IMG/VR virus record: IMGVR_UViG_3300031566_000047
Coordinates: 1-54,174 of that record
Reading direction: 5' to 3' (one strand)
Origin: a virus
DNA length: 54,174 bases
How positions within the stretch are numbered: position 1 is the first letter of the stretch; each line of letters opens with the position of its first letter. The notes beneath the pieces were generated by a model. It made no database searches and had not been told where the DNA came from. It was given only the letters and a program-made list of their open reading frames with translations. The translations under genes were made by a program, and so were the position numbers. Shown one piece after another: positions 1,423-51,250 of the stretch.

Positions 1423-1423
1423 G

Positions 1424-1654: not shown

Positions 1655-1680
1655 GTTTCTCCTCCTTCGTCACCGTCTGC

Positions 1681-1989: not shown

Positions 1990-2270
1990 CACGACTCCTT
2001 CCTCGCCTTTCGCTTCGCCGCAATCTCCTGCTTCAGATCGTCCGATAGCCCTGGAGTCCGCAACAACACATCAATGATCGACTCCGGTTCGCCGCCGCGC
2101 TGAGGGGCAGGCGTTCGCTTCTCGCGCCGCTCTCGCTGTATCCTCGCGTAGCACTCCCGCCAGTTGTGCCGTCGTCCGCAGTGAACGCACGGGGGGAAGG
2201 AGGGGGCGCGGTGCTGTTCGGTCCGTTCAGGTTCAGGCGACTCTACCCACCAAGGACGCTTGCCGCTCAT
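1989..2270 (-). CDS. Small protein with zinc-knuckle-like motif
   Basis: 93 residues. CVHCGRRHNWREC (C-x2-C-x3-H-x4-C, residues 27-39) resembles a CCHC zinc knuckle with one residue fewer in the middle. The rest is very basic (RIQRERREKR), so nucleic-acid binding is plausible. It is coupled to the replication protein upstream by a 4-base overlap, which fits an accessory role in replication. This is inference only. Confidence 0.65.
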   Translation of the reverse strand: MSGKRPWWVESPEPERTEQHRAPSFPPCVHCGRRHNWRECYARIQRERREKRTPAPQRGGEPESIIDVLLRTPGLSDDLKQEIAAKRKARKES

Positions 2271-3148: not shown

Positions 3149-3153
3149 TCTAG

Positions 3154-3210
3154 CTATGTCTCCTGCCGCGATCTCGGAATGTCATGTGTTGGCCCGTCAA
3201 CTGTCGCCAC
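3154..3210 (-). CDS. Possible 18-residue micro-ORF
   Basis: A GTG at 3210 follows a strong ribosome site (GGGAGG, four bases upstream) and opens an 18-codon frame ending at TAG 3154, just upstream of the replication gene start. It fills the only gap between the methyltransferase and the replisome-organiser gene. It could be a leader peptide, or simply the relic of a ribosome site. No conservation can be judged here. Confidence 0.25.
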   Translation of the reverse strand: MATVDGPTHDIPRSRQET

Positions 3211-3228
3211 TCTACCTCCCTCGCCCTG

Positions 3229-29300: not shown

Positions 29301-29766
29301 TGATGGTGTTGACGTAGCGCATCATCATCTCGAACGAGGCTGCTTCCCGCGTCGATATCGTAAATGCCGCAGCCGCCGCTAGTCCCGCGATCAGGGCCGC
29401 TCGCGTGAATGCCTGGAGTGCCCTTACGCCGGTCTCGGCAATCCAGGTCACGATGCTCCGGCCGAGGTTCACCACGGCGGTGAGAATACCGCGGAACACA
29501 TCTAGGGCTCGGATTCCGAGCGCGGCGATACCGACCAGCGGTGCCCGCAGGGATACGCCGATGAACTGGACGGCCCGACCAAGCATCGAAGCGCGTCCAG
29601 CCGCCATAGACATACTCTCCCCGGCCTCGCGCATGGTGCGGCCGGCTTCCCGCCGCAGGCGCTGGACGTGATCGATAGTGCGCTGGAGCGACCCGCCGAA
29701 CTGTCTCAGCGGGCCCTCTGCGCGGTTTACGGCTTCAAGCACAACTTCAAGTCGTCTTCGTTCCAC
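26323..29766 (-). CDS. Tail tape measure protein
   Basis: 1147 residues, GTG start at 29766 immediately after the frameshifted chaperone frame ends. The TP901-type core (REAASFEMMMRYVNTITR, YDVASAGFKGAEGLKIV, VSTLQAYGMAAEKAGYISDV) lies at about 150-400, and hydrophobic segments follow. At about 1.5 angstrom per residue it would set a tail near 170 nm. The C-terminal part carries seven 14-residue PxDNPDWR-type repeats in two blocks. The protein spans the tail lumen and helps eject DNA. Confidence 0.9.
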   Translation of the reverse strand: MERRRLEVVLEAVNRAEGPLRQFGGSLQRTIDHVQRLRREAGRTMREAGESMSMAAGRASMLGRAVQFIGVSLRAPLVGIAALGIRALDVFRGILTAVVNLGRSIVTWIAETGVRALQAFTRAALIAGLAAAAAFTISTREAASFEMMMRYVNTITRTTDASLAQLSADALAIARDIGKAPAEVARGLYDVASAGFKGAEGLKIVRVAAEASVAGMTDVATASRLIVSTLQAYGMAAEKAGYISDVMFKTVELGIITFGDLAQAIGPAIATAAAAGVQIEEVGAAFATMTKAGIDASMTGTSLQRIMLSFLDPAKEFADALRTVGVEQASTFIRTKGLAGAIDALNRLAAGNPAALANMGLEMRALRAAMSLTRGEASSFSSDLAAISQAAGATGSALAQVAATVGYAWDRFKARAQAMFVTVGSSFAGLVRKVLEGAGDIADRMSALAEEISQSDRWQRLVDTVGLAMDAAGEKVGTWLDWLSENWDTVWDAVADRVGTAANFVVMWIGRIVGAIGYLIEQRQGIWDWARTFMDAMVAVGQAIVQEVLGRLDTLAKSLGTTIKLPLGMELDVAALKTQIAGAVAGGLAGAPLGPWGAAGGAATGFLATGKAYEAGRAGLAALGESVEEWGTTASAFFDEQRARFEQGQGFFGGMKGAAIERGAAYSEWLYGLREAVSGLELGRGREAQGDIRELGEGVWAFGDVADSIEEATAALNRGGQQLAEKADGLTAASRGVATGGEALVGAAGSLSGAAGNLGAAAGTLADAAKSIPGYLRGAEMAQRYGLMASIAEARGKPEARAGFLREQEAWQERQVSAAVEAFRNNPADIRLLQIWERAETDLAAIRKALEEQDRMAVDMPDWWPRADVLGPPVGVAIQAAEVPAQTNFQVARPPVEWGDFPLAYEQAPGDNPDWQIDRLPTPGDNPNWRIQDVPAPGDNPDWQRGADVLGAAVAQGQTALLQQLARMDDSKVQGWNEEQPSPGLRGQEVFASEFRLPDDWMPPGAATHPDELLSGMDRIESAVLRAARAQIPVTFDDLPLIPERAPREIPDWRPDEITAPAAIPDWRMDRTPILGDNPDWRLEDIPAPGDRPDWIASRRPTEANEPGIVINVGEVNSKEQLKRTADEAIDVWWDRHVEHEETYQNY
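26488..27047 (-). repeat. Two blocks of 42-base repeats encoding PxDNPDWR units
   Basis: Three 14-residue units (PGDNPDWQIDRLP, PGDNPNWRIQDVP, PGDNPDWQRGADV) are followed, after about 110 residues, by four (PREIPDWRPDEIT, PAAIPDWRMDRTP, LGDNPDWRLEDIP, PGDRPDWIASRRP). The conserved core is DNPDWR. The span given covers both blocks and the sequence between them. Confidence 0.8.
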
Positions 29767-34710: not shown

Positions 34711-35013
34711 TTACATACCGATTACCTGCGCGTCGATATCGTCGGGAACCCGCCGCATGATTCGTCCACACTGCCGGCACTTAAAGTCGCGAGGCTGCGA
34801 GGTTCCGGTTTCCTCGCGCGCTCTACGGTCCTGGCTCATATAGAGCCCCGTATCGCCCGCGGCCACCGGCTCGAACTGGCCGAATAGGGACGCTTCACAG
34901 GCGCCGCAGGTGTCCAGGGGCAGGTCGGTTGGCGAGGCCGTCTGCCCCTGAACGGGAGGTGAGGCGTGAGCAGCGGACGTTTTCCGCGTGATGTCTCGCA
35001 TAGTCGTCGGCAT
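34711..35013 (-). CDS. Small zinc protein, end of glycan cassette
   Basis: 100 residues, ATG 35013 overlapping the previous stop (TGATG). LDTCGACEASLFGQF (around residues 50-64) and FKCRQCGRIM near the C-terminus form two C-x2-C pairs. It follows the glycosyltransferases, but no function is known. The longer start at 35058 lies in the previous gene and is rejected. Confidence 0.6.
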   Translation of the reverse strand: MPTTMRDITRKTSAAHASPPVQGQTASPTDLPLDTCGACEASLFGQFEPVAAGDTGLYMSQDRRAREETGTSQPRDFKCRQCGRIMRRVPDDIDAQVIGM

Positions 35014-35975
35014 CAGCCCATCGCTCCCTGGAGAAACTCTCGCCAGTCCGCCTCCCACCTATCTAATCCGCCGAACTCCTCGGCCCAGGCTCGCGCGCCC
35101 AGCGAAACCGCCTGCCGCCGCGCTAGAACCCGCGTCAATGCCTGACTCCACTGCTCGACAGCCGCGTCATCCGTCGCTACCACCGGCACTGTCTCCCCAA
35201 CTGGCAGGCCATTCATCATGCCGCCTTCGATGTCGGCGAACAGTCCCACATCACTCGCCACAATCGGTAGTCCACAAGCCAACGCCTGCAATCCCGCATA
35301 GGGGCAGCCATCTGCGCGGGACGGGGAGACGAAGATGTCTCCAGCAGCTATAGCTTCGGCCTCTGCTCCGATCCCCGCCCCGATCAGTCGGAACTCGATA
35401 TCGGGCCGCCTCCTCGCGAGTGCCGCTATCACATCCCCGCCCTTCGGCATGGCGTCGCTCGGATAGATTGCGATGGGCCGTTCCCGCGCCGGATGCTGCC
35501 GCGGCTGGTACTCGTCTAGGTCCAGTCCGTTGGCGATGATCGCCGCCGGCTCGACTCCGTACATACCCTGCAACTCCCACTTGGTATAGTGGCTAACAGC
35601 TACGGTGGGTAGCCGCCGGTATTCGGCCTGTTGTATCTCGCCGAGCCGCATAGCCTCCGCTGAATTGCAGGCCAGTCCAATGCCCTTCCAGGTTCCATGG
35701 GCCACCGAGATTACCGGGCCGTCAAAGTCCACCAGTCCGCGGCCCCAGAAACCGTCCACGATAACCGCCTCAATGTCGTTCAGCGCGCCCGATGAGACAA
35801 GCCAGCGCCCTAGCAGATCAGCCGCGCCAGCCTCGTCTACTCGCGCCTTCTGCGGCATGTCCGACCACGAGTAAAGCCGCGCGCCGAGCTGCTGCTCCAC
35901 GTAATGGCCAAACAAAGGGACACCGCCAGGGTGTCCTTCGCTCCGCTTGTAGAAAGCTATGTGGGCGAGATTCAA
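35013..35975 (-). CDS. GT4-type glycosyltransferase
   Basis: 320 residues. TTG 35975 has AAGGA seven bases upstream, ten bases after the previous stop; an in-frame ATG at 36032 is an alternative. GT-B fold signs: HIAFYKRSEGHPGGVPLFGH (N-lobe), then IANGLDLDEYQP, PSDAMPKGGDVIAALARRRP and FVSPSRADGCPYAGLQALAC (C-lobe, E/D-x7-E type region), typical for GT4 transferases using nucleotide sugars. It is the last sugar transferase of the cassette. Substrate unknown. Confidence 0.82.
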   Translation of the reverse strand: MNLAHIAFYKRSEGHPGGVPLFGHYVEQQLGARLYSWSDMPQKARVDEAGAADLLGRWLVSSGALNDIEAVIVDGFWGRGLVDFDGPVISVAHGTWKGIGLACNSAEAMRLGEIQQAEYRRLPTVAVSHYTKWELQGMYGVEPAAIIANGLDLDEYQPRQHPARERPIAIYPSDAMPKGGDVIAALARRRPDIEFRLIGAGIGAEAEAIAAGDIFVSPSRADGCPYAGLQALACGLPIVASDVGLFADIEGGMMNGLPVGETVPVVATDDAAVEQWSQALTRVLARRQAVSLGARAWAEEFGGLDRWEADWREFLQGAMG

Positions 35976-35985
35976 GTGGATATCC

Positions 35986-36216
35986 TTACCAGAATAACCC
36001 TGGCGCGCAAACGGCGCAGGGGTACCAACCACAACCCATCATGCTCCGCGCCTGTCCTTCCGAAATCGCAATCACGTCCTCTCCGGAAATCCGGGGGCAG
36101 TCCGGTCGGTTGTGCAGGCAGGTATCGAACCAGCGGCGATACATAGTTCCGGTTCCCGACTGCCCCGCCTGACGAACCACCATGGCATCCCGTTTGGCGG
36201 TTACCTCCATGGCCAT
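35986..36216 (-). CDS. Small Cys-rich protein in glycan cassette
   Basis: 76 residues. ATG 36216 overlaps the previous TAA (TAATG), with GAGGAGACGAG upstream. CLHNRPDCPRI and CGWYPCAVCAPG give possible metal ligands. Function unknown. Overlap with the methyltransferase gene suggests coupled expression. Confidence 0.6.
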   Translation of the reverse strand: MAMEVTAKRDAMVVRQAGQSGTGTMYRRWFDTCLHNRPDCPRISGEDVIAISEGQARSMMGCGWYPCAVCAPGLFW

Positions 36217-36839
36217 TAGCTCTCTCGTCTCCTCATGGTAAGCAGGGTGCATCGCAGGTTCGCGGTCTCCCAATCGTCGGATGGAAAGACCGTCTCATTG
36301 ACGAACCGTATGATGTCCACCCAGTCCTCGTAATAGTCATGGATAGCCAACCAGCCGCCTGCTACTACATGCTCATGAAACCCCTCGTAGTCGCCGCGTA
36401 TCCCTTCATAGGTATGCTCGCCATCAATGAAGAGCAGTCCAATCTCTCGCTGCCAGACCTTCGCGATTTCCCTGGAGTCGGCTCGAATGGGCGTCACCTG
36501 CGCCCCCAGCCCGAAAAGGTCAATGTTGAAATCGAAGCGCTCGCGGTGTTGGTCCCCGCCCTTCAGCCCGCTTGCCGGACTATACGGTCCCCAGGTGTCG
36601 ATAGCCCAGACGTGCGCGCCCAGACCGGCCGCGGCACCCAATCCGAGCCGGCACGTCGACCGCCCGCGGAGGGAACCGATTTCTACGATAGCCTTGTCTG
36701 CGGGCACCCGCGCCGCGAGCCACGTAAGACGCTGCGCCTCATCCTCCTGTAGGTAACCCCAAACCCGTTTAGGGTGCGGGGTACATTTCAACGCCATCAG
36801 TTCGTTGTCGGGCGTCTGTGGTATCGTCGCCGTGTCCAT
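36216..36839 (-). CDS. Class I SAM-dependent methyltransferase (CmcI-like)
   Basis: 207 residues from ATG 36839 (TGATG overlap). IVEIGSLRGRSTCRLGLGAA is the SAM-binding motif I, AIDTWGP motif II, and IGLLFIDGEHTYEGIRGDYE with GGWLAIHDYYED follow, as in methyltransferases of the CmcI/Methyltransf_24 group that modify sugars. It is probably a sugar O-methyltransferase in the cassette. Confidence 0.8.
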   Translation of the reverse strand: MDTATIPQTPDNELMALKCTPHPKRVWGYLQEDEAQRLTWLAARVPADKAIVEIGSLRGRSTCRLGLGAAAGLGAHVWAIDTWGPYSPASGLKGGDQHRERFDFNIDLFGLGAQVTPIRADSREIAKVWQREIGLLFIDGEHTYEGIRGDYEGFHEHVVAGGWLAIHDYYEDWVDIIRFVNETVFPSDDWETANLRCTLLTMRRRES

Positions 36840-37537
36840 CAGTCGCTCCCGCCAAGCCATGGCACCGCCGGGGGCTTCGCAACGATCACTTCTAGCGCGT
36901 CGCAGTCCGCCGCGATTATAGAGAGCCCCGCCCTCATGCAAACCTCAAGCAGTTCGCCGGGATACCAGCGCCGGAAGTTCGCCGGCCAGTCGCCCCGGTC
37001 AGCCTCCTCGAATCGCTGCGGATAGCGCATCGCTGGAACCTGAAGCCATGCTATGCCATCGTCAGTCAGAACGCGCGGCAGGTCGCGCAGATACCGGACC
37101 ACTACCTCTCTGTCCATGTGCTGGAAGACCATGTGGGAGAAAGCAAACTGGATAGCACCATCCTTGATGGCTTCCAGCGAATATCCGCTGCCCTTTACGA
37201 GCACGACCTTCCCACCCTGCGTCATAATTGGCATCCGCTCGGCGGCCTGCCGCAGCATCTCGCCGCTTACGTCGAGCAGGTGGTAGGTCCCGACGACTGG
37301 GGCGAGATACTTGGCCGTCCTGCCGGTGCCCCCGCCGATATCGAGAACCGTCACCGCGGCACGATCCTCGAAGAAGAAATCGACCAGGCCGGCGAGATAC
37401 TTGGCGTCCCTCTGCCCGCTCTCCTCAAACCATTCGGGACTCGCCCGGTAGCAGATGGCACTCGTCGAGTTCTCTTTCGCGAGTCGGTCCCAGAGCGCGT
37501 CCATCGAAGTCCCTGGGTCCCATTTGCCCTCAGGCAT
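36839..37537 (-). CDS. Class I SAM-dependent methyltransferase
   Basis: 232 residues. VTVLDIGGGTGRTAKYLAPV is motif I, TYHLLDVSGEMLRQA motif II, and IKDGAIQFAFSHMVFQHMDR, YLRDLPRVLTDDGIAWLQVP follow. This is the small-molecule (Methyltransf_11/25) class rather than a DNA methylase, so sugar or lipid methylation is likely. It overlaps the next gene by 8 bases. Confidence 0.85.
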   Translation of the reverse strand: MPEGKWDPGTSMDALWDRLAKENSTSAICYRASPEWFEESGQRDAKYLAGLVDFFFEDRAAVTVLDIGGGTGRTAKYLAPVVGTYHLLDVSGEMLRQAAERMPIMTQGGKVVLVKGSGYSLEAIKDGAIQFAFSHMVFQHMDREVVVRYLRDLPRVLTDDGIAWLQVPAMRYPQRFEEADRGDWPANFRRWYPGELLEVCMRAGLSIIAADCDALEVIVAKPPAVPWLGGSD

Positions 37538-38501
37538 AACCTAGACCCTCCAGTTGTCGTCGAATTTCGGCCTCGTCTACCGCCCCGCCCTCGGTGATCT
37601 GCGTCAATGCTATCCCCTCTATCCGCCGTGAGGGGGCCGCATCGAGCAGGTAGAGCAGCGTGGGAGTAACGTCTTCTACACTCACTTCCAAATTCTCGAC
37701 TGGCCGTGCCTGTGGGCCCTTGTAGGCGATGATTCCGCGCCGCGTCGCCGGGTAGTTCGGCCCATGGCATAGACCCCAGCCATCCCCCTCGCGGGGTTCA
37801 TCGGTCAAATCCAGCGCATGGTCGGAAACAATGAATGTCCATTCGGGGTAGAGAGTGAACTCGAACCGCTGCAGCATCACCCGTATATCCGCCACGATGC
37901 TCTTCAGGGTCCGCTTCTGCCGGAACGTCCGATAGGCATAATGCGCGAGTCTGTCCAGGTCCGTCAAACAGAGAATGGCGAGATCGGGCTGCCCCTTCTT
38001 GAGTTCCACGAGGAATCTGTGCGCGAGTGCCCACCGGGCAGCATGGCAAGTCTCCATCAGGTCCTTGTCTGGACAGGCGAGGAAATCCCAGGAGGGCTCG
38101 CCTTGATGCGCGTAGTAGAGGTCGAGGTCGCGCCATGCCCAATCCACCGCCGCCTGCCGCGGGAATGTCCGATTCTTTTCGGGCGCGGGATACCCGCAGA
38201 CGAGAAGCCGCCGCACCAACCGGGGCGGGTACGTGAAGGGCACATTGATCGCCACCGTTTCCATATCCGCGGCCGCGAGGTGGTCCCATACATAGGGCGG
38301 CCGCTTCAGGCCCTTAAGCATTCGCGGCTGTGGGACGTGCGGGATACCATGCCCCTCCGCCGTCAACCCCGTGAAGATGCTCGTCCAGGCGGGACCCGAT
38401 AGTGCATGCGGGGAATCCAGAACGCCGGTATGGAAGCCGTCTTCCTCCAGCCAGTGCCGCCAGTCGTAGGAGTAGCCGTCAATGCCTACTACGAGAATCA
38501 T
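37530..38501 (-). CDS. Alkaline-phosphatase-superfamily enzyme
   Basis: 323 residues from ATG 38501 (ATGA overlap). ILVVGIDGYSYDW opens the fold with metal ligand Asp8, and ALSGPAWTSIFTG provides the nucleophile Thr40. TDLDRLAHYAYRTF, WTFIVSDHALD and WGLCHGPNYP supply the other metal ligands. It resembles type I phosphodiesterases and phospho-transferases. It could add or remove phosphate groups on glycans. Exact reaction is unknown. Confidence 0.8.
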   Translation of the reverse strand: MILVVGIDGYSYDWRHWLEEDGFHTGVLDSPHALSGPAWTSIFTGLTAEGHGIPHVPQPRMLKGLKRPPYVWDHLAAADMETVAINVPFTYPPRLVRRLLVCGYPAPEKNRTFPRQAAVDWAWRDLDLYYAHQGEPSWDFLACPDKDLMETCHAARWALAHRFLVELKKGQPDLAILCLTDLDRLAHYAYRTFRQKRTLKSIVADIRVMLQRFEFTLYPEWTFIVSDHALDLTDEPREGDGWGLCHGPNYPATRRGIIAYKGPQARPVENLEVSVEDVTPTLLYLLDAAPSRRIEGIALTQITEGGAVDEAEIRRQLEGLGYA

Positions 38502-40600
38502 GCCTGCGCCCTCCACTGCGCGACCCTTGCGCGGAATACCTTATCATCAGCGAGCGCCCTCTCCCGCGTACCCTCGGGCCGTCTGCCACCTGGAGCGAGG
38601 AAATGCCAGGCGAGGGCCTGGGTGTCAACGAGTAACTTCTTCTTACCGAGAAGGTGCAACCTAACGCTCGCATCGGATTCTTCCCGCTGTCCGAACCGGC
38701 TATAGCAATCCGCGAACCCGCCGACCTCCTGGAGCGCACTCGCCCGATACATCCACGTCGAATATAAGTGTTCGCACTCCACGACCGCCTCGTCGGAGAA
38801 CTGCCAGAACTGCAGCCTCGCATGGCCGGCCAGCAGATCGGCCAGCGTATTCGTCATCCCTCGCTTGGTGGCAAGAGGGCCGTATTCATGCAGGACTCCA
38901 TCGCTGTGCATGGGATAGCAGCCGCCGACGGCCCCGACTTCGGGTTGGTTATCAATCAAGCGGTAAAGACGCTCTATGAAATCCGGTCGGGCTGGCAGAA
39001 GGTCGTCGTCAATTCTTAGGACGAGATCGGTCCCGAGATGTTCTAGCGCGATTTGATGGTTCGGACTGGCACCCCTTCCCGAACCCTGGACTATATCGCA
39101 CGGGATACCGCTCTGCTCCCAGCGCTCGACCATCTGTTTGACGGCGGAATTGTCTCGTAAGGTTGGTTCGCCATCATTCACGATACAGATGGCATTCGGG
39201 CGCTTCGTCTGCACGTAGAGCGCCGATAGTAAGATCGCGAGGTATCCCGGTCTATCTCTCGTGGGGATACCTACGCCGAGCGTTTCCATCCCTGGCGGAC
39301 TGGGGGCGCCGAGAACCGCGGCACCGCTGGATTTCGCGAGTGGAGTCCCTGGAACAGACTCGCGGACGGTTTCGGGTCCTCGGCGCTCCTTCAGTCCCAA
39401 GACATCGGCGATACCGCGGGCCATGCGCGCATATGTGAATCGCTGCCGCAGGTCCTCGGCGATCTCCCTCTGTTTCAACTCGTCGGGCGACTCCTCGAAT
39501 ACCCGCCGCATCCAGTCGGCGACGTCCGCGAGGTCGGGTTCGGCCCACAGCGGCCTTTCGTCAGCCTCATAGAGACCGAGGTTGTTGTTGCTCGGGGCCA
39601 TCATGTAGGGGAACAAGTGCGCGTTCTCATCTGTAGCATATTCGAGTTGCCCGCTCCACCCGGTAGTACCGAGTCGGCAGCCGCAGGCCAGCGCCTCCAA
39701 TCCCGTCAAGCCGAACCCTTCGACTCGTGCTGGCGCGAGATACGCGCCGTGCTGCGCGGCGCGCCGGTAGAATGCAGCAACTTCGCTATCCATCCATGGC
39801 GGTTGTGAATTGCCCATGCCCATCTGATATATATACTCGACCCGCGGTGCCTTACTGCCGAGTCGCTTCCGCCATTCGGCAATGATCTCCCGGCACCAAG
39901 CATCGCGGCCATAGTCGTAGTTCTTGACTACGAGCAGAACTTTGTCGGAACGCTTGAATGCCTGCCCGTAAGCCTCCAGCGCGACATCAACGCCCTTGCG
40001 AGGCGACATAGCGCCGACCATGGCGAAGATGAATGAGTTGCCGCCAATATCCATAATCGGACCGTCAGGACAAAACAGCGATGTATCGATTCCATTCGGA
40101 ATGACCCGCAGGCGGTCCTCCGATACCCCTGCCGCACTCAGGGCATCTCGCACGGCACCGCTTACGCAGATGTTCCCCGTGAAGTGCTCTAAGAAGTACG
40201 CGACGTGATTACGTGGCGCGATGCTATTGTCGAAATGAAACCATGACCAGGAACCGGACGGCCCCTCGAATGTCCCCGCGTTGCAGAGCAGACTCTTTCC
40301 TATCGGGGGCTGGTCACGATTTGCTCGCCACGTCTGCCGGTCCACCGAGAAGCCCATGCGTTGCAGTGCCAGAGTGACTTGCCGTGAGAGTGTGCAGAGG
40401 GAATGCCCACAACCCGGCATACAGGGGGTTCGATAGAGCGTCATATTCGATGTGGTCGGATCGTCGATGACCTCTACCGAGGACCCGAAACCGCCTAGTG
40501 CGTTAATTGGCAGAACCGTTGTCTCGCCCGCGCGAATCAACCAAATGCCCGAAAGCTGATCGACCCTGGACGTATTTCGTACCTTTACCGTTTCTGACAT
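38498..40600 (-). CDS. Bifunctional glycosyltransferase (GT4 + GT2)
   Basis: 700 residues from ATG 40600 (GGGAGCC upstream). The first ~400 residues are GT4-like (VIPNGIDTSLFCPDG, AMVGAMSPRKGVDVALEAYG, YLAPARVEGFGLTGLEALAC). A linker leads to a GT2 domain from about residue 440 (LGVGIPTRDRPGYLAILLSA, NDGEPTLRDNSAVKQMVERW, LVLRIDDDLLPARPDF with the DDD metal motif). Two transferases in one chain probably add two sugars in sequence. Immediately downstream of the capsid gene, separated by a strong hairpin. Confidence 0.88.
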   Translation of the reverse strand: MSETVKVRNTSRVDQLSGIWLIRAGETTVLPINALGGFGSSVEVIDDPTTSNMTLYRTPCMPGCGHSLCTLSRQVTLALQRMGFSVDRQTWRANRDQPPIGKSLLCNAGTFEGPSGSWSWFHFDNSIAPRNHVAYFLEHFTGNICVSGAVRDALSAAGVSEDRLRVIPNGIDTSLFCPDGPIMDIGGNSFIFAMVGAMSPRKGVDVALEAYGQAFKRSDKVLLVVKNYDYGRDAWCREIIAEWRKRLGSKAPRVEYIYQMGMGNSQPPWMDSEVAAFYRRAAQHGAYLAPARVEGFGLTGLEALACGCRLGTTGWSGQLEYATDENAHLFPYMMAPSNNNLGLYEADERPLWAEPDLADVADWMRRVFEESPDELKQREIAEDLRQRFTYARMARGIADVLGLKERRGPETVRESVPGTPLAKSSGAAVLGAPSPPGMETLGVGIPTRDRPGYLAILLSALYVQTKRPNAICIVNDGEPTLRDNSAVKQMVERWEQSGIPCDIVQGSGRGASPNHQIALEHLGTDLVLRIDDDLLPARPDFIERLYRLIDNQPEVGAVGGCYPMHSDGVLHEYGPLATKRGMTNTLADLLAGHARLQFWQFSDEAVVECEHLYSTWMYRASALQEVGGFADCYSRFGQREESDASVRLHLLGKKKLLVDTQALAWHFLAPGGRRPEGTRERALADDKVFRARVAQWRAQA

Positions 40601-40619
40601 CCGAGGCTCCCGGAATGTA

Positions 40620-40648
40620 GGGGAGGGCGACAGATCGCCGCCCTCCCC
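40620..40648 (-). promoter_or_regulatory. Strong hairpin between capsid and glycosyltransferase genes
   Basis: GGGGAGGGCG (40620-40629) and CGCCCTCCCC (40639-40648) are perfectly complementary, 10-base arms around a 9-base loop. No T-run follows on the minus strand, so it looks like a transcript-processing or stability element rather than a terminator, and it may set the capsid:enzyme ratio. Confidence 0.7.
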
Positions 40649-40686
40649 ACTCATTGCGTCAGTCAGTCCAGTCGGTACCGTTCAGA

Positions 40687-43600
40687 CTACCAACCCACGC
40701 CCTGAACAGCCGGCTGGCAGGTGACGGTCGCAAGGCTGTTGCCTACGACCTTGGAGTAGCCGAAGCGGCTCATCACCGCAACTGTCTCACAGAGGGTATC
40801 CGGGTTGACAAACGCCGGAGCGGTGTAGAGCGGAATGAACGGGCAGTAGACCATGCCCGAGTCATACCAGTCCGCACCCTTGCGCCCAACGAGAATCAAC
40901 TCGGTGGGCCAGAAATCGGGGTCGGCACCGTAGACCTTGTACTTCGGCTGTCCGTCCAAGGTCCCAACGCGGTTGATACCGACTTCCCACTCGGCGGCTT
41001 CCGCGTCTACGGTCGTTGCCGACCAACTCTCTAATCGCATCAGTCGAATCAGCGCGTTCGACCCGGCGACGGCCCAATTCGTGCGGGCGCGTCGCTGCGC
41101 CCGGACAAGGCCATCTGCCTGCAGGATGTGCCGGTAGAGTTCCTTCTGCCAGGTGCCAAGTTCGACGTAGCCGGCAGCCGGCAGGAGACAACCGAAGTTC
41201 ACATTGCCGGCGGTGACGTTACCAGCCGGGTCCGCGGCGGTTCGCATGGTATTCATGAGCAGGGCGACCACCTCTCGGGCGATCTCGTCTGCCATGAAGT
41301 TGACCATCTCCGCCTCGATAGCGATACCGTGGTCTGCCCGCAGGTTCTGGCGGACTTCACTCGACCACTGCGCCCGCAACTTCTTCGTGTCCATGGTGAT
41401 ATCAGCGTGAGTCAGGCTGAGCTTCACCTGCGGTATAGTGGCCTGTTCAGAGACGTACTGAGCGTAGTCAGAACAGAACTCGCCCGGAATAGCCGGGTTG
41501 CCCAGCGTCGGGTCGTAGAGGAAGTCGAGGAAGTGGACCACGCCGGTCGACTTCGTCATGGGCTGAACGCTCATCAGTTCCATAACCCACTGGAGACGCG
41601 CCCACACCTGCCGGATGATCGGCAGGACGTAAGGCACCGTCTGCGCGACGTTCGTGGTGCCCGTCCATTCGAGCATAGCGAACTGGGGCCGGTACTGCCG
41701 TAGGTTCGCCATCAGGTAGTTGGGGTACATGCGGATCACGTTTTCCACCACCGTGCGGAAGACGTGATTCGGGTTGCCGGGGTGGTACCCGTGGAAGGGG
41801 GCATCCCCGCCCAACGCCCTCGCAACCGGGTCGTCGGGATCGGTGGAACTGTGCAGGCCATTGTCGGGAATCCCCTCGCACAAGAGATCGAGAACTTCTT
41901 CGCGGCTCTCGGGGAGGAAGCGCGGGGAAAGTACGCCAAGCTGGAACTCCTTGGCGCGGTCCTCGCGGCTCTTTTCGGGGGTGGAAGCGACGTGGGCGGC
42001 GGTAATACCCATTCCGCCCGGACGGTTGATGATCAGCAGGCCGATCTCCTGAAGGGTGCGCTCGGTACGCTCATAGGTCGGCTGAAGCTGGTCGACTTCC
42101 GTGACCTCCGCCAACCTCTGCTCCATGAGCTTGCGCGCTGGCGGTTCCCATGCCTTGACCTCGTCGGTCTCCATGATCGCCGTGGTAGCGAGCTTGAGGG
42201 CCGCGGCCTTCTCCTCAGCCTTCTTCTCATCGGCCTGGCCCTGCACGTAAGTCGTAACGACTTCGGCTAGGCTATCAATACGCCCGGACATCTCACTAAG
42301 TTTGTCCGGTTCCTTCGTCTCCGTCTTCGGCTTGGGCTCTTCGCCGTCAACCTTTGGCGGATCGGCACCCGCGGCAGGCGGGTCGCCTTTCGTCTCCATG
42401 AGGACCTGTACGCCGGCGGTCGTGCCCTTGGCGACGGCCTCCTGGATGAGCTTCTGCAACTCTTCTGTGGTCATTTCGTCTAGCACCTCGTCGATGGTCT
42501 CTCCAGGAACATCACTCGACGAGGGAGCCGAAGCGGCTGCCGCAGGCTGACCGTCCCTCTCCCTGAAATTGCGAACGCCCGCGACCTCATCGCCCTCGTG
42601 GGCGGCAGCGCCTAGGACGAAGTCCCAGCCGCCGAGGTTCGCGAGCGCCGTCTTCTCATCTACAATCTCAACTGTTTGTCCGTCTCTTACCTCCGTAGTC
42701 GTGATAGCGGCAGTGCGCGAACTCACCTGCACCGGAACGCCGTTGCGGACGAGCCGCTGCACATCAGCGCCTTTGCTAGTGTTGATAACGTCCGTCGCCC
42801 CCAGCAGGTGATTGCCTTCGAGCCGCAAGTCCCGCCAGGGGGTGCAGACCGTATCCATAAGCCGGGGCCGGCCGTCGGCAGGGTGGTCACCCTCGCCGAG
42901 CCACCGCTTCGAGCGGGCCGTGCCCTCCTTCGACTCCGCGACGATACTCTCAAAGAGGCCCTTGGGGTAGACTCGCCCATTCTTCGTGGGGGTGTCCGCA
43001 ATACCGAGCAGGCATTCCACCGTCATAAGGTGGTCGGTGCTGCCCGCGGTCGTGGTCGTGTCCTTCTCGGCGACGATTCGGACGGGGGCGGTGTAGGTTT
43101 CGAGGAGTTCAGTCGTCTCGGCTTGCGCTGGAACATCGCCGGCGAGGGTCGCTTCGCCGTCGCCCGCCGGGGGTGCCGTGCGAATCGCTTCGGCGTCGTC
43201 AACGCGCAGAACGGCCCGCACCTGGCGAATGTCCTCCAGGGATACCGTGCCGTCCTCGCCTCGCTTCCATGCGGCCCGGTAGAGCTGCCCCTGGCCTCCA
43301 CTGACGACCACGCGGTTGCCGAACGTGGCCTCCAGGCTCGGCCCCCACTCTTCCTCCGACCCGAAGGACTGGTAACCGTCCTTGATCGCCTTGCGGATGT
43401 CCCGCATGTCGGCCTCATAGCTGCCGTCGATGCGAACGTAGACCTCCATGAGGGGCGACGTCTCAGCAGGCACCGGAAGGGCGGGGAACTCTTGCCCGTC
43501 GTCCATCGCGTAGATTGAGGCGCGGGCGTCCGGGAAGGCCTGCTCCCTCACCTTTCGCGGTGTCTCCATCACGACGGAATCCGCCTGCTCCAGGAGGATG

Positions 43601-43824
43601 CGCAACTCGGTAGCGCCATCCTCGTCGCCGCGCTCCAATGCCGCGCGAATCTGTGCCTCGATGCTGTCCCTGACCTGGGCCATGTCTAGCGTCTCCCCTG
43701 CCGCTTCCTGCGGCGTCTTGCCGTGTCGCTTGTGGTACGCGATGGCGCAGATGCGCTTCGCGTCGGCCAGGGACTTCCCGGATTTCTTTTCGCTCGCCAC
43801 GCAGGCGAGGTATTCCTTGGGCAT
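40687..43824 (-). CDS. Fused prohead protease - scaffold - major capsid protein
   Basis: 1045 residues from ATG 43824 (AGAGGCGAT upstream). Residues ~250-410 resemble T4 gp21-type proteases: NGRVYPKGLFESIVAES, GEGDHP with the likely catalytic His314, and VQVSSR with Ser368/369. Residues ~410-600 are charged and Lys/Glu/Pro-rich (EEPKPKTETKEPDKLSEM) like a scaffold. The C-terminal ~430 residues look like a gp23-type capsid protein (FIPLYTAPAFVNPDTLCETV, SRFGYSKVVG). The N-terminus (YLACVASEKKSGKSLADAKR) is an extra domain. One polyprotein carrying all three functions would need to cut itself. Confidence 0.8.
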   Translation of the reverse strand: MPKEYLACVASEKKSGKSLADAKRICAIAYHKRHGKTPQEAAGETLDMAQVRDSIEAQIRAALERGDEDGATELRILLEQADSVVMETPRKVREQAFPDARASIYAMDDGQEFPALPVPAETSPLMEVYVRIDGSYEADMRDIRKAIKDGYQSFGSEEEWGPSLEATFGNRVVVSGGQGQLYRAAWKRGEDGTVSLEDIRQVRAVLRVDDAEAIRTAPPAGDGEATLAGDVPAQAETTELLETYTAPVRIVAEKDTTTTAGSTDHLMTVECLLGIADTPTKNGRVYPKGLFESIVAESKEGTARSKRWLGEGDHPADGRPRLMDTVCTPWRDLRLEGNHLLGATDVINTSKGADVQRLVRNGVPVQVSSRTAAITTTEVRDGQTVEIVDEKTALANLGGWDFVLGAAAHEGDEVAGVRNFRERDGQPAAAASAPSSSDVPGETIDEVLDEMTTEELQKLIQEAVAKGTTAGVQVLMETKGDPPAAGADPPKVDGEEPKPKTETKEPDKLSEMSGRIDSLAEVVTTYVQGQADEKKAEEKAAALKLATTAIMETDEVKAWEPPARKLMEQRLAEVTEVDQLQPTYERTERTLQEIGLLIINRPGGMGITAAHVASTPEKSREDRAKEFQLGVLSPRFLPESREEVLDLLCEGIPDNGLHSSTDPDDPVARALGGDAPFHGYHPGNPNHVFRTVVENVIRMYPNYLMANLRQYRPQFAMLEWTGTTNVAQTVPYVLPIIRQVWARLQWVMELMSVQPMTKSTGVVHFLDFLYDPTLGNPAIPGEFCSDYAQYVSEQATIPQVKLSLTHADITMDTKKLRAQWSSEVRQNLRADHGIAIEAEMVNFMADEIAREVVALLMNTMRTAADPAGNVTAGNVNFGCLLPAAGYVELGTWQKELYRHILQADGLVRAQRRARTNWAVAGSNALIRLMRLESWSATTVDAEAAEWEVGINRVGTLDGQPKYKVYGADPDFWPTELILVGRKGADWYDSGMVYCPFIPLYTAPAFVNPDTLCETVAVMSRFGYSKVVGNSLATVTCQPAVQGVGW

Positions 43825-43842: not shown

Positions 43843-43942
43843 CACGCCCGGCCAAATAGAAACCCCCCGGTCTCTCTCGGCCGAGAACGAGGGGTGATGA
43901 AGCTTCACGGCCTGCCGCTAGCTAGGCGGCTGACCGGGCGTG
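43843..43942 (-). promoter_or_regulatory. Structured leader upstream of the capsid gene
   Basis: CACGCCCGG (43843-43851) and CCGGGCGTG (43934-43942) pair to close a ~100-base region. Inside lies GCCGC (43914-43918) with GCGGC (43926-43930), 7-base loop, and a CTCGGCCGAG palindrome. It ends 19 bases before the capsid ATG. It could tune capsid translation. The 140-base gap 43825-43964 has no other gene. Confidence 0.5.
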
Positions 43943-44378: not shown

Positions 44379-45446
44379 CTATCCCTGCGGATACCGCGGC
44401 GCCATCGGAGTCGGCAGGGGCGTGATCGCGCCCGTCCCGGCCAACGCCTGCGCCCGCAGTCGGTCCAAGTCATCCTCACTCGCTACAGCATCGCATTCGC
44501 AGTGCGGATGAGGTGTCGGCGGCAGTTCCCGACTCCCTACCGGGTAGCGCCTGCCCGCCCGTATAGCACACGTCGAGCAGGGCCGTGGACCGCATATCCA
44601 CTCCAGCATCTGTATGCCCGCCGCCAGGTAGGTCGAGCGTCGTCCCTCCATCCGCGCCCGTACCGCCTCCGTCCGCGCTATTCGCTCGGCTTCCCACCCT
44701 TCCAGGTTGTCCCATACTCCCCGGAGTTCGCTCCCCATGTCTGCCGCAGACATGCCCTCGTCGAGTCCCGTTATCATCGCCTTGCGAATCTCGACCTGCC
44801 ATTCCATCGGCACGAGCTTCGTCAGCCTGTCGCCGTAGTAGCCGGCGTACTGTCCCATCTCGCCGACCGCCGCCGGGTCTTTGAGCAACCAATCCTCGGC
44901 GAACCCCAACTGCGCCGCGGCCTTACTCGATCCGTTCTTCATTGCCTCCTCGAAGGCGTTTCGAAAGCCCTCGCGGAACTGTCCGTCCAGGTTCTCCGGC
45001 AACTCTATGGACTGCATCAGCACCCTCAGCGAACTCGTCGAGTCCTCGGCCTCCAGCATCGCCTTGCCCCGGAGTTGTGCCGCCAGGTTCTGCTTCTCCG
45101 TATCGTCCAGGCTCCGCAGGTTGACGATCCTCGCCCGCCACTCCTTGCGGACGAATCGCTGCCTCTGCTCCGGCAATCCAGCCGCCCGACGCCACTGCTC
45201 TCGCTCCCGTTCGACGGCAAGGTCCGCGTCGAAGGTGTCTCGTATCAACGGCACGAGCAACGACGGTTCCGGCGGCCGGTACCGCTGCCGGAAGGAGACC
45301 TCCCACTTCCGAGCGAATGACTGGACGACTCGCAAGATAGGAAGCCGCCCCGGAAGGGCATTCGCCGCCTCAAGCAGGGCCAGGGTAGTTGTAGCTGCCC
45401 GCACCGCTAGGCGCAGGTTCTCGCGCCTCTGCGTTACCGCCGTCAC
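44379..45446 (-). CDS. Head morphogenesis / minor head protein (Mu gpF / SPP1 gp7-like)
   Basis: 355 residues. The C-terminal ARTEAVRARMEG, WICGPRPCSTCAIRAGRRYP and PPTPHPHCECDA are the hallmark of the Mu gpF/SPP1 gp7 family. It is packaged inside the head next to the portal. The GTG start at 45446 overlaps the portal gene by 77 bases. Confidence 0.85.
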   Translation of the reverse strand: MTAVTQRRENLRLAVRAATTTLALLEAANALPGRLPILRVVQSFARKWEVSFRQRYRPPEPSLLVPLIRDTFDADLAVEREREQWRRAAGLPEQRQRFVRKEWRARIVNLRSLDDTEKQNLAAQLRGKAMLEAEDSTSSLRVLMQSIELPENLDGQFREGFRNAFEEAMKNGSSKAAAQLGFAEDWLLKDPAAVGEMGQYAGYYGDRLTKLVPMEWQVEIRKAMITGLDEGMSAADMGSELRGVWDNLEGWEAERIARTEAVRARMEGRRSTYLAAGIQMLEWICGPRPCSTCAIRAGRRYPVGSRELPPTPHPHCECDAVASEDDLDRLRAQALAGTGAITPLPTPMAPRYPQG

Positions 45447-46947
45447 CCTCTAGCTCCTTGTTCGCGAGCACCAATACCGCCTCCAATATCCCCTGCAGTG
45501 ACTGCGCGCGCCGGCCCAACTGTTCCTCTGCCGCCCCCGCCAATTGCTCGCCTAAGTCCCCGAGCCAGCGCTCCTTCTCGTCCTCGGTAAGGCCCATGTA
45601 GTGATCAGCCACCATCTCAAGCGGGACTTGCAGGAAGTTCGCGATGATCTGCAAGGTCTGTGCCCGCATGTACTCGATCTCGGCGTTCTGCTTGGCGTCC
45701 GCGGTTGAAATAACCGGGAACTCCAGGGCGACTGGGTTCTTGATTGGGTCGTATCCCCGCAGGATGAGATGCAGGGTAATCACGATGTTGTGCCCATAGG
45801 CCAGCGACTTCTGCATGCCCCGAATCGTGCGGGCGAACTGGATATCCTCGTAAGAGATGTTGCCGCTGCCGATAGCGGCCCTCGCCGCCTCCGCGCCACC
45901 GAGGTTCAGGTAGCGCATGGGAACGCCTAACCGTGCCAGGACAATCCCGCGATGGTACTCTACGTCCCGAATGACCTGGAGCTGTACGTTCGCCGGGGTG
46001 AGAAGCTTAGGTCCCGCGTCGGGGTAGTCCTTGCCCACGTAGGGCACGTAAAAATCCTGCGTGACTTCCGTCGGGTTGTCCCGTGTACTCGTGCCCTGGG
46101 TGGCCGAGAGCACCCGTCGACGCATCAACTTGTCCGCATACCGCTTGACTGCCGCCTCCTGGTCATCCCGGCCCATCTTCTCGGTTACCGGAACCCTATG
46201 GACCATCCGGTCCATGGCCCGCTGCCGCCGCGCCTGGACCATGTCATCTTCCATCGCGGCGAGCCGCATGTACTCCCGTTCGCACCCCAGTATGCCCCGG
46301 CCGTATGCTTCGTCGGGGTCAATGGGGTAGGTATACTGCACGACTTGCCACTCGGCGAAGGGTATCCCGCTACCGTCCTGCTTGTAGTAGGGGCGCTGCT
46401 CCCAGGGCGGGTCCTGCGGCAGGCCCCTATCATCCAGCCGCCGCCATATCTGATGCTCTGGCAGAAGCTTATACCTCACCACACGGCCACCAGCCGGGTC
46501 GAGTACTGGCTCCCTCATCTCATTTCCGTGGGTGGCGAGGCGCCGAGCTATCCCGTTGCTTGACTCTCGGAGCTTGATCGCATCGCAGAGAAGTTCTACC
46601 TCCTCAGTTATTCGGTCTTCCTCGCACCGCACAAGAAACGCATTCCGCGCATCGCCCTCGTCCTCCGGTGCCGTCGCCACATCCGCGATCACGTCGAGCG
46701 CTTTGCCGATGAGCGCGGATTCATCCGCCATACGCTGGCGAATCGCATGCCGCTCCTGTCGGTTCCGACTCATCCGCCAGGGTCGCGTTAAGGTACTAAT
46801 CAAATCGGCATCGAGGAGACCAACCTCGCCAGCCCCTAGCTCCGCGGGTACGCCCGCAAGCTGGTCAACCGTCGGGCCGAAATATGGAGACAGCGCCTTC
46901 GCGAGGCGCTGCCCGATTCGCTGTTGAATTGCGGAGATCAGTCTCAT
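45370..46947 (-). CDS. Portal protein (T4 gp20-like)
   Basis: 525 residues. IWRRLDDRG, EWQVVQYTYPIDPDEAYGRG, GGAEAARAAIGSGNISYEDI, FARTIRGMQKSLAYGHNIVI follow the order of portal proteins and particularly T4-like gp20 (EDIKFAKFI-type helix near the clip). It would form the dodecameric DNA entry ring. It lies between terminase and head morphogenesis genes, the usual order. Confidence 0.85.
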   Translation of the reverse strand: MRLISAIQQRIGQRLAKALSPYFGPTVDQLAGVPAELGAGEVGLLDADLISTLTRPWRMSRNRQERHAIRQRMADESALIGKALDVIADVATAPEDEGDARNAFLVRCEEDRITEEVELLCDAIKLRESSNGIARRLATHGNEMREPVLDPAGGRVVRYKLLPEHQIWRRLDDRGLPQDPPWEQRPYYKQDGSGIPFAEWQVVQYTYPIDPDEAYGRGILGCEREYMRLAAMEDDMVQARRQRAMDRMVHRVPVTEKMGRDDQEAAVKRYADKLMRRRVLSATQGTSTRDNPTEVTQDFYVPYVGKDYPDAGPKLLTPANVQLQVIRDVEYHRGIVLARLGVPMRYLNLGGAEAARAAIGSGNISYEDIQFARTIRGMQKSLAYGHNIVITLHLILRGYDPIKNPVALEFPVISTADAKQNAEIEYMRAQTLQIIANFLQVPLEMVADHYMGLTEDEKERWLGDLGEQLAGAAEEQLGRRAQSLQGILEAVLVLANKELEGDGGNAEAREPAPSGAGSYNYPGPA

Positions 46948-46955: not shown

Positions 46956-48446
46956 CTAGACGTAAATCTCGAAGGCCTCCGCGTACTGGCTAACTTCCTG
47001 CCAGAATGCCATCACTACCGCGTCGCCATCGTCTGTCGAGCGCCCGAGTCTCTTCTTAATATCATCCTTGCTCTCCACCTGAATCTTCCCGCCCGACAGA
47101 ACCCGCCAGTGTGGTGCGGTCAAATCGCCAATCAACAGATCGTCGGGACGCAGGGCAATGGGCCGCCCCGATGCAGGATCGAGTATCTCCCGCATTCCCC
47201 ACCAGGCCGCGCTCCGCTTGTTCGCGAACCCGAGTTCACCCGACCTGTCCTTGGCGTCCGTTCCCTCCGAAGCATTGAAGGGCTCGACCGCGAGGCCCTG
47301 TTCCTTCAGCCGGTCGACCACGCCCGCCCCTATCCCAATCACGTCCACGATAGCCTTACCATTGTGCGCCTCCAGAATTCCCGCCACCGCCCCGGTCGTC
47401 GCCATGGTATCCTGCTTGGAGAAGCGACGAAGCTCCTTGATCGCGTCACCATGCCGTAAGGCAATGACGCTCATATCCGCTCCCGACCGCGCCACGTCCA
47501 CGCCGCAACAGGTGAAGGGGTCCCAATCATCTGCGTCGTTGTGCTCCTTCCACCGCTCGTTCGCCGCCTCTACCCAGGAGAGCGGAATCACGCCATCCTC
47601 TTCCGACGAGGCGAACTCGCCCAGCACGCGGTTCTGGTAGACGGCCGAGTCCTCGCCCCACTGGAGCTTGCGCTGATCTGCCCACTCCTGGGGAACTCGC
47701 CTCGCTGCGATACATTCTGCGAGGGTCACATGCCGTACCCACCAGTCCTCATAACCCGGCTTGCGCTGGTGAATCTCGTAGAAGCGCCCCTGCGGTTCGC
47801 CCGGAGTGCTGATTGCCAGGGCGTAGCAATCTCCGCTTGCCAGCGCACCCTCGGCCGCGTCCCATGTCGCCGGCGGGATCGCCTTCGCCTCGTCAAACAC
47901 GTAGAGGAGCCGGTCGGCGTGCGCGCCCTCGATGAGGTCCGGCTTATCGCTCGCCGCGGAGAATGCCTCGCCATGGCCGAGCTTCAGCATGAGCTGTAGC
48001 AACTCCGTCCGTTCGTCAAACCGGCCTCGCCCGACCCGTTCCCACCTCAGCCGGCGCGTCCATTTGTGCAGTTCCGGGGCGAGATAGTGGCTCAGTTGCC
48101 GCCAAGCACTCGCCGTCATTACAGCCTTCCAGTCGCCCTCCATGTGATCACGGGTGAGCGCAAACCAGAGCACGACCCAGGCCGCGAGTGCTGTCTTTCC
48201 CGAACCATGGGGGGACCGGATCGCCGCGCGCCGTCTCGTCGGAAGTTCTTTCAGCACCTCAAGCTGATACGGGGTCGGCCCTTCGCCCTCGGCCCACTCG
48301 AAGCACTCCAAAACGAAACGGTCGGGGTGTTCCCCGTAGATAACCGCGAAATCTTTGGCCAACAACACGTCAATGCCCCCGAGCAGGGCGTCTATGGCCT
48401 CGGGCCTGCCGCGAACCACCTCCAGGATATCAGGGGGCGCGGTCAC
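46956..48446 (-). CDS. terL: Terminase large subunit
   Basis: 496 residues. ATPase: Walker A SPHGSGKT (78-85), Walker B LLYVFDEAK with Asp185-Glu186, and a coupling STPGEP region. Nuclease: GVDVARSGADMSV and, near the end, DDGDAVVMAF supply acidic metal ligands. The motor packages DNA and cuts concatemers. GTG start overlaps the upstream gene (GTGA). Confidence 0.93.
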   Translation of the reverse strand: MTAPPDILEVVRGRPEAIDALLGGIDVLLAKDFAVIYGEHPDRFVLECFEWAEGEGPTPYQLEVLKELPTRRRAAIRSPHGSGKTALAAWVVLWFALTRDHMEGDWKAVMTASAWRQLSHYLAPELHKWTRRLRWERVGRGRFDERTELLQLMLKLGHGEAFSAASDKPDLIEGAHADRLLYVFDEAKAIPPATWDAAEGALASGDCYALAISTPGEPQGRFYEIHQRKPGYEDWWVRHVTLAECIAARRVPQEWADQRKLQWGEDSAVYQNRVLGEFASSEEDGVIPLSWVEAANERWKEHNDADDWDPFTCCGVDVARSGADMSVIALRHGDAIKELRRFSKQDTMATTGAVAGILEAHNGKAIVDVIGIGAGVVDRLKEQGLAVEPFNASEGTDAKDRSGELGFANKRSAAWWGMREILDPASGRPIALRPDDLLIGDLTAPHWRVLSGGKIQVESKDDIKKRLGRSTDDGDAVVMAFWQEVSQYAEAFEIYV

Positions 48447-49614: not shown

Positions 49615-49888
49615 GTCCGTTCTCCCGTCTCGCCACGAACCGCTCGTGCACCACGCAGAAGTCGCTGCCCTCTATCGCGGGTCTCCGACAAGGCTTGCCA
49701 GTGGAGATCACGAACCCCTCACATCGCCTGCGCGTCTCTCGTGGCGGCCGGCGTAGTCTCCGACTCCCGATCCCCTGCACGTCCAGCAACCTCTCTACCC
49801 TGTCCAAAGTGGGAGCAAACGCCTCTGGCGCATATCCCGCCATGTCTATCTGTCGCTGCCAGAGGGCGCCGAGGGTGAGGTTAGGCAT
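49607..49888 (-). CDS. Small Cys/His protein
   Basis: 93 residues from ATG 49888 (or GTG 49894). CEGFVISTGKPCRRPAIEGS followed by DFCVVHERF is the RCxxxTxxGxPCxxPAxxGSxFCxxH pattern of small zinc proteins common near phage packaging genes. Function unknown. It overlaps both the methylase and small terminase genes. Confidence 0.7.
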   Translation of the reverse strand: MPNLTLGALWQRQIDMAGYAPEAFAPTLDRVERLLDVQGIGSRRLRRPPRETRRRCEGFVISTGKPCRRPAIEGSDFCVVHERFVARRENGRG

Positions 49889-51152
49889 GGACACGCACCG
49901 CCTTGTCGCCAGTCAGGTTCTCCCAGCGGGCGAGTACAACGTCACAATACTTAGGCATGATCTCGCAACCGTAGGCTATGCGCCCCGTCTGCTCCGCGGC
50001 TATCAGGGTCGTGCCCGAACCGAGGAAGGGGTCGAGGACGGTATCGCCGGAGTCGGTACACGCTAGGATATACTCCTGCGGTAGGCCCACCGGAAACATG
50101 GCTGGATGCCCCATGTCTCGGCCGATATGCGGAGCGTGACGAAAGACGGTGCCTAGCGGCCGATGCGTTCGCACCTCCTTCGGTTTTGCCCGCTCAAGGG
50201 TTCCGTCTGCTTGCCGGTTCGTTATGCCCGTCCTGGTACCGGGTTCCTTGTTCTCAACCGTCAAATGGAGGTCTCTCCTCGCTACGCCAAAGACGAAGAC
50301 CCACTCATGTTCTATTGGGAACATCGCTGTATTCTGCGCCATACTCCACGGCTGTAGGCGGTCCCATACGTTCCAACTCAGGAGCTTCATGCCCGCCGAC
50401 TCAGCCGCGGCTATATACTCATCCCAGTAACGCACCACGGCGTTCTCGCGCCGTACTATGCCAAGGTTCACCGCCTGCATCGCCGTGTATGCCGCCCACA
50501 CCGGCAAGAAGCCCGCGACGTGCGACACGTCAAGGTCGGCGTCTCCCCCGTATTCCCTCGCATCCATGTAGGGCGGAGATGTGAATAGTAGGGGCGCACG
50601 CCCTGTCCCCATAAGCCCGGCCACCGCCCCCGCGTCCGTACTATCCCCGCACATCACCCGATGCTTCCCCAGCGCCCACACCTCCCCCGGCTGGACCCGC
50701 GTCGGCCCCTCCTGCGGCTCGGGGATCTCGCCCTCTTCGGGCACAGGTGTCGGGTTCGCCGCTTCCAGTTCCGCCAGCAGCTTCCCCAACTCCTCCGGGT
50801 CGTACCCCGCCATCTCCAACTGCCCCACGTCCTGGAGGGACTTCAGGAGGTCGGTCAACGCCTGCGGGTCGGGTTCGGCCATCTGCGCGCTGCGGTTGTC
50901 CATTACGAGGAACGCTTCCGGGTAAGGCCCGTCGTAGACGTGGCAGGCGATCTGCACCCAGCCCTCAGCCTTCGCCGCCTCCCACAGTCCATGCCCCGCC
51001 AATATCGTCCCATCCGGCTGAATCACGAGGGGCTTCTGAAGTCCGTGCGTCCGCAGGCTTTCCCGCAGGACCGCCATCTGCGGCTCAGGATGCCGCTGAT
51101 AGTTGCTGGGGTGCGCTTTCAGGTCGGCGATTGCGCGCTGCTCGACGTTCAC
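49881..51152 (-). CDS. ParB-domain DNA methyltransferase
   Basis: 423 residues from GTG 51152 (GGGGAGG upstream). ParB-like N-terminal domain (residues 1-100, LKAHPSNYQRHPEPQ, ILAGHGLWEAAKAEGW) is fused to a beta-class N4/N6 methyltransferase: TSPPY motif at 191-195 and DPFLGSGTTLIAAEQTGR with the SAM pocket near the C-terminus. Such ParB-MTase fusions are common in phages and act on adenine or N4-cytosine in DNA. It likely protects the genome against restriction. Confidence 0.9.
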   Translation of the reverse strand: MNVEQRAIADLKAHPSNYQRHPEPQMAVLRESLRTHGLQKPLVIQPDGTILAGHGLWEAAKAEGWVQIACHVYDGPYPEAFLVMDNRSAQMAEPDPQALTDLLKSLQDVGQLEMAGYDPEELGKLLAELEAANPTPVPEEGEIPEPQEGPTRVQPGEVWALGKHRVMCGDSTDAGAVAGLMGTGRAPLLFTSPPYMDAREYGGDADLDVSHVAGFLPVWAAYTAMQAVNLGIVRRENAVVRYWDEYIAAAESAGMKLLSWNVWDRLQPWSMAQNTAMFPIEHEWVFVFGVARRDLHLTVENKEPGTRTGITNRQADGTLERAKPKEVRTHRPLGTVFRHAPHIGRDMGHPAMFPVGLPQEYILACTDSGDTVLDPFLGSGTTLIAAEQTGRIAYGCEIMPKYCDVVLARWENLTGDKAVRVHA

Positions 51153-51250
51153 CCGCGCCTCCCCGTCAGGCTCTTCGCCAGGTCTTTCCTTGCCTGCTTC
51201 ACAAGCGCGGCCGCCAGCCGCCACGGGCCCTCCTCATCCCTGATTCGCAT
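51149..51250 (-). CDS. Small basic protein, 33 residues
   Basis: ATG 51250 to TGA 51149, overlapping the upstream gene by 17 bases and coupled to the methylase start (GTGA). Composition is basic and helical (GPWRLAAALVKQARKDLAKS). Coupling at both ends supports expression, though a 33-codon frame could occur by chance. Confidence 0.45.
   Translation of the reverse strand: MRIRDEEGPWRLAAALVKQARKDLAKSLTGRRG

Follow-up and report, generated by a model that had tools for sequence, protein, structure and literature searches.

A gp21-type protease, a scaffold-like segment and a gp23-type capsid protein joined in one reading frame of a probable siphovirus

A single gene in the window, the 54,174-nucleotide stretch of an IMG/VR virus record analysed here, encodes in one chain an N-terminal part, a gp21-type serine protease, a scaffold and a gp23-type capsid protein, a domain order that matches the T4 gene order 21-22-23. 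The product is probably a self-processing, single-chain precursor for head assembly. The domains, their order, a conserved catalytic triad and a genuine open frame in several viruses are directly legible in the sequences, confirming at this level both the reality of the fusion gene and its domain reading. The gene and its parts are:

40687-43824, minus strand: whole fusion gene (N-terminal part, S77 protease, scaffold and gp23-type capsid protein; 1045 aa)
43540-43824, minus strand: residues 1-95, conserved helical N-terminal module
43117-43539, minus strand: residues 96-236, hypervariable module
42535-43116, minus strand: residues 237-430, gp21-type (S77) protease
43099-43107, minus strand: predicted cleavage site LLE242/T (slash, cut) at the protease N-terminus, with E242 invariant in a 40-sequence alignment
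42885-42883, 42723-42721 and 42624-42622, minus strand: catalytic triad H314, S368 and D401, placed by alignment to gp21 homologues
41929-42534, minus strand: residues 431-632, scaffold-like segment, net acidic
42472-42489, minus strand: candidate internal start, with GAGGTG (42489-42484), 9 nt and the ATG of Met451 (42474-42472)
41875-41928, minus strand: residues 633-650, start of the capsid propeptide
40690-41874, minus strand: residues 651-1045, gp23-type (HK97-fold) capsid protein

The frame runs from an ATG at 43824 to a TAG at 40689-40687 without an internal stop, in exact agreement with an earlier reading made from the letters alone (the sequence-only reading), which had described a single uninterrupted frame of 1045 residues at these coordinates; an alternative GTG start at 43908 would yield a product of 1073 aa. 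Since the source is a metagenomic contig, and the capsid gene is separate in relatives, we considered whether an assembly artefact could have fused separate genes. However, the same open frame recurs in four other IMG/VR contigs, each with a different metagenome id, at identities to the window fusion of 100% (L001), 82% (L002), 87% (L004) and 91% (L003, a fragment at a contig edge), and a search of related phages also recovered the fusion in a second, divergent clade. When the window is compared with L002, divergence is mainly synonymous, with synonymous to non-synonymous codon changes of 49:15 in the protease, 36:14 in the scaffold and 79:22 in the capsid segment, which indicates coding selection along the whole chain, junctions included. 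The assembly error that the sequence-only reading had named as a possible refutation is thus contradicted by independent contigs, and its probability appears negligible. We found no second S77 or Gp23 gene within the window, no NCBIfam model matching the fusion chain, no match to the fusion in a plasmid collection and no description of an S77-Gp23 fusion in the literature searched.

The gp21-type protease and gp23-like C-terminus that the sequence-only reading recognised on either side of a charged scaffold-like middle agree with both Pfam and PHROGs, but this description had passed over an N-terminal part of ~236 residues, so that the borders now lie at ~237-430 for the protease proper, ~431-632 for the scaffold and ~633-1045 for the capsid precursor. 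The fusion chain matches Pfam Peptidase_S77 (PF03420; E 3.8e-9, 36.8 bits against a curated cut-off of 27) and the PHROGs head maturation protease (phrog_207; E 6.2e-22), as well as Pfam Gp23 (PF07068; E 3.8e-38, 132.3 bits against a curated cut-off of 24.4) and the PHROGs major head protein (E 2.8e-34). These library matches constitute the independent domain evidence; the profiles built here include the window sequence, and their E-values are therefore not independent. Structure prediction, proposed earlier as a check, returned the expected T4 proteins as top matches, namely gp21 for the protease model (5jbl; E 3.5e-4, probability 1.00; pLDDT 58.7, pTM 0.33) and, by Foldseek, gp23 for the capsid model (E 1.5e-13, TM-scores ~0.44, pLDDT 56), although low model confidence (mean pLDDT 56-59) limits the fold matches to modest support.

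The protease domain is divergent, with 22-28% identity to gp21 homologues and GEGDHP in place of the usual GELDHP motif, features that could be expected of an inactive domain with a purely structural or targeting role, in which case the head would be matured by another protease. Yet all three triad residues, H314, S368 and D401, occupy columns that are invariant in the alignment of gp21 homologues, the domain is under purifying selection, the window contains no other S77 protein, and a matching cleavage motif is enriched within the same chain. Loss of activity is therefore very improbable.

This motif enrichment lies in the scaffold. T4 gp21 cuts after L/I-X-E (PMC9026906), and residues 431-604 of the fusion chain, 32% of which are charged, contain ten [I/L]xE sites, compared with 2.99 expected from shuffles (P 0.0002), whereas ten control motifs ([IL]E, [IL]..E, [IL].D, [VM].E and others) showed no excess in the same residues. 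T4-type scaffolds display the same enrichment, and the capsid core has a single [I/L]xE site, which is missing in L002. At the protease N-terminus, LLE242/T aligns with the L-x-E motif that opens many gp21 homologues and corresponds to LIE9, a site described for T4 gp21 (PMC9026906). The excess of [I/L]xE, together with its absence for the control motifs, makes self-processing likely: the fusion chain would be a substrate of its own type of protease, and the self-cleavage inside the prohead suggested by the sequence-only reading is likely on the same grounds. The other clade of triple fusions has little or no such excess, and its cleavage specificity may differ. Homology between the scaffold and those of relatives has only marginal statistical support (shuffle P 0.002 to 0.43); in a whole-profile comparison, the protease aligned and the scaffold did not.

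Residues from ~633 onward align, with marginal statistics, with the N-termini of the relatives' capsid proteins, placing the ancestral scaffold/capsid gene junction at ~631-637. Shortly downstream, LPE639/S and LCE650/G align with LLE/S and LLE/G of giant-phage gp23 homologues. The mature capsid protein is predicted to begin at G651, or at W720 given cleavage after M-L-E719; W720 is the best-placed mature N-terminus, yet it requires Met rather than Ile/Leu at P3. In HK97, the delta domain drives prohead assembly. By analogy, the scaffold would act in cis with the capsid domain to build the prohead, after which the protease would cut behind [I/L]xE motifs: at LLE242/T to free itself, at as many as ten positions to break up the scaffold, and at LPE639, LCE650 and perhaps MLE719 to trim the capsid propeptide.

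Upstream of the protease, the first ~46 residues match phrog_32268, a family of unknown function that includes gene 168 of Thermus phage phiYS40. Residues 96-236 differ strongly in L002 and L004, even though the window and L004 hardly differ from the protease through to the C-terminus. This module (43117-43539) is swapped between near-identical viruses (window, L002 and L004). Its L004 version matches phrog_19463, represented in Salmonella phage 9NA by gp38, which is encoded two genes ahead of the major head protein. In the second triple-fusion clade, the N-terminus carries a ChaB domain.

Capsid assembly requires few proteases and many capsid subunits, as illustrated by the T4 copy numbers of ~100 gp21, 576 gp22 and 960 gp23 (PMC5694885). 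The sequence-only reading held that a polyprotein forces 1:1:1 synthesis. This claim is not established, since the in-frame ATG of Met451, which sits at the border of protease and scaffold behind a ribosome-binding site, would allow an excess of scaffold-capsid protein. With in-frame starts ranked by how well the sequence ahead of them pairs with the 16S tail, the top Shine-Dalgarno start was the border ATG in 16 of the 19 protease-scaffold genes whose ranked lists were read (L107 tied); their border-start sequences include aaggaggtagcgacATG. An automated count limited to ATGs found the border start to be best in 16 of 20 genes, against 4.07 expected, although these genes are related and do not represent 20 independent trials. 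For this count, the border was set at 45-90 residues past the catalytic Ser, and Met451 lies 83 residues past S368; the border starts of the window, L199 and L204 were assigned by eye from the ranked lists. Met451 ranks third of 60 starts in the window, behind Met857 (in the capsid core) and GTG696, and it is conserved in L002-L004, but its site is weaker than the border sites of the relatives. Among the other triple fusions, the border start ranks first of 72 in L201 and, as a GTG, second of 77 in L208, and it is the best ATG in Virus Rctr41k. A reduction in synonymous change near Met451 was not significant in a comparison that comprised three distinct sequences only.

If translation also began at Met451, a nested 595-aa scaffold-capsid protein without the protease would be made, and full-length chains would form a minority that doses the protease, similar to the herpesvirus UL26/UL26.5 arrangement. 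We consider the chances of such a product to be about even: the border start is conserved in relatives and weaker in the window, so that a forced 1:1:1 ratio may be avoided. A rough estimate of prohead filling, which assumes T=7 and uses general background values for the radii and for P22 and HK97, favours the nested product, giving ~62% of the prohead volume for full-length chains only and 19% for synthesis from Met451, as compared with ~24% for the P22 scaffold. The same dense filling speaks against a strict polyprotein that lacks an internal start and delivers protease, scaffold and capsid at 1:1:1 to be sorted by self-cleavage, as do the T4 ratio of gp21 to gp23 and the retention of the border start in relatives. 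Conversely, the frame is open end to end, there is no ATG, GTG or TTG at the ancestral scaffold/capsid junction near residue 633, the Met605 site is weak and that of Met451 moderate, and L231, another triple fusion, lacks a usable border site. On balance, a Gag-Pro-like mode in which each capsid subunit enters the prohead together with a T4-type protease and a scaffold of its own seems unlikely; if it did apply, assembly would depend entirely on self-cleavage for emptying an interior that is packed very densely. Still less probable is a separate gp23-like capsid precursor of 441 aa starting at Met605. This residue is conserved in L002-L004, and one alignment matches it with the gp23 start, but its Shine-Dalgarno energy is only -2.2 kcal/mol, and an alignment with relatives puts it in the tail of the scaffold and the beginning of the capsid part near residue 633. 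Met605 was therefore rejected as the capsid start.

The statement of the sequence-only reading that T4-type phages encode these proteins separately holds for those examined, comprising T4-like, cyanophage, jumbo-phage and Flavobacterium phage records as well as the 69 loci from a first IMG/VR scan in which a separate protease ORF was found. This first capsid scan was filled with T4-type loci; a closer profile, derived from an alignment using L098, reached nearer relatives. Many of these (L113-L118, L098, L107 and many of L192-L212) have the protease and scaffold in one ORF followed by the capsid gene, and in L115, L117 and L118 a TAATG overlap couples the two. In the nearest relatives, the protease and scaffold are fused and the capsid gene is still separate. 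The triple fusion thus probably arose when a protease-scaffold gene became joined in frame to the adjacent capsid gene. Complete fusions also occur in L201, L202, L208 and L231 (985-1189 aa), with both S77 and Gp23 matches above cut-off, and that of L231 comes after a terminase and a T4-type portal. In a quick tree of capsid domains, the triple fusions nest within the protease-scaffold group as one clade (support 79), which allows for a single origin.

Several loci showed further peculiarities. The S77 protease ORF of L228 (2763-4616; 618 aa) appears, by eye, to contain an intein-like insert directly after the catalytic DHPE, L235, L239, L232, L233 and L236 carry a tandem pair of Gp23-type capsid genes (~640 and 631 aa), and the capsid gene is spread over two adjacent or overlapping ORFs in L106 (7770-9462) and L224 (5906-7849), due to a frameshift, a sequencing error or a real split. 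Upstream of its fusion gene, L208 has a 1077-aa ORF (2-3232) that resembles RHS/YD-repeat proteins by eye.

The domains themselves are ordinary. It is rare for all three of the T4-type parts to be fused, but the arrangement is not unique, given the clade of L201, L202, L208 and L231, Rctr41k and MD8. Virus Rctr41k gene 30 (KX853513), annotated in GenBank as 'putative phage capsid protein and protease', likewise combines an S77 protease, a scaffold and a distant capsid domain in one gene (871 aa) and shares the border ATG with a ribosome-binding site. However, its capsid part is missed by Pfam Gp23 and weakly matched by the profile built here (E 7e-8), and its N-terminal part is shorter and unlike that of the window. 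Protease, scaffold and capsid in one gene have already been reported for other families. They were proposed for gp5 of Pseudomonas phage MD8 (693 aa), whose protease was matched to the lambda protease/ClpP type and whose capsid part was matched to phage Mu (PMC8508860), making it an analogous triple fusion that is not of T4 type, with a protease unrelated to that of the window. Protease-capsid fusions are also known from Arthrobacter AM/AU/AN phages and Rhodococcus RRH1 (PMC5513430) and from thaumarchaeal proviruses, in which S78 or chymotrypsin-like proteases are fused to HK97-like capsid proteins (PMC6563490). All of these share a protease-capsid gene with the window, but none is described as T4 type. 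Compared with T4 itself, the window shares the domains, their order, the triad and a cleavage motif enriched in the scaffold, whereas T4 has three separate genes, and the window combines tape-measure and siphovirus-like tail genes with a MuF neighbour.

Nesting of the kind suggested here for the relatives and Met451 also has precedents. In lambda, Nu3 is nested in frame in C. An overlap of these two genes has been cited before (PMC8508860). In herpesviruses the scaffold gene UL26.5 is nested in frame within the protease-scaffold gene UL26 (PMC12474303), and the herpesvirus protease and gp21 have structural elements and catalytic residues in common (PMC5694885). Both systems keep the capsid gene separate, whereas the nested product of the window would include the capsid. 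The T4-type head module thus occurs in three arrangements, as separate genes, as a protease-scaffold gene with an apparent nested start, and fully fused, so that protease dosing can be compared across relatives. An internal start codon may set the amount of protease made, and the start at the protease/scaffold border resembles the UL26/UL26.5 arrangement. The nested-start pattern of the relatives may be a more general result than the fusion, which is a further variant; one deposited record (Rctr41k) already names a similar gene. In addition, gp21 autocleavage is described as a major gap in the understanding of T4 head maturation (PMC9026906), and a single self-contained chain would offer a simple system for testing it.

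The surrounding genes place the fusion in a head module of mixed character. Portal, MuF-like protein and large terminase all lie upstream of it:

46956-48446, minus strand: terminase large subunit (phrog_2, 4.4e-40)
45370-46947, minus strand: T4 gp20-type portal (PF07230, 1.9e-21)
44379-45446, minus strand: MuF/SPP1 gp7-like minor head protein
26323-29766, minus strand: tail tape measure protein

A search with 20 further ORFs of the window identified the tape measure protein, a minor tail protein and connectors, and no tail sheath was found among these 20, on a contig that may be incomplete. The tape measure and minor tail genes, together with the absence of a sheath from these ORFs, suggest that the virus is probably a siphovirus carrying a T4-type head module, although the separate genes 21, 22 and 23 that typify such modules are represented by one chain in the window. 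The juxtaposition of a T4-type portal with a MuF-like protein (44379-46947) is an unusual combination of head modules. Further upstream, ahead of the small terminase gene, lies a gene for a 447-aa protein with ParB-like and DNA methyltransferase domains (49881-51224). Directly downstream of the capsid gene, the window encodes glycosyltransferases (35013-40654), and at the equivalent position L098 (9112-11748) encodes proteins resembling those of CMP-sugar/sialic-acid synthesis, as named by eye.
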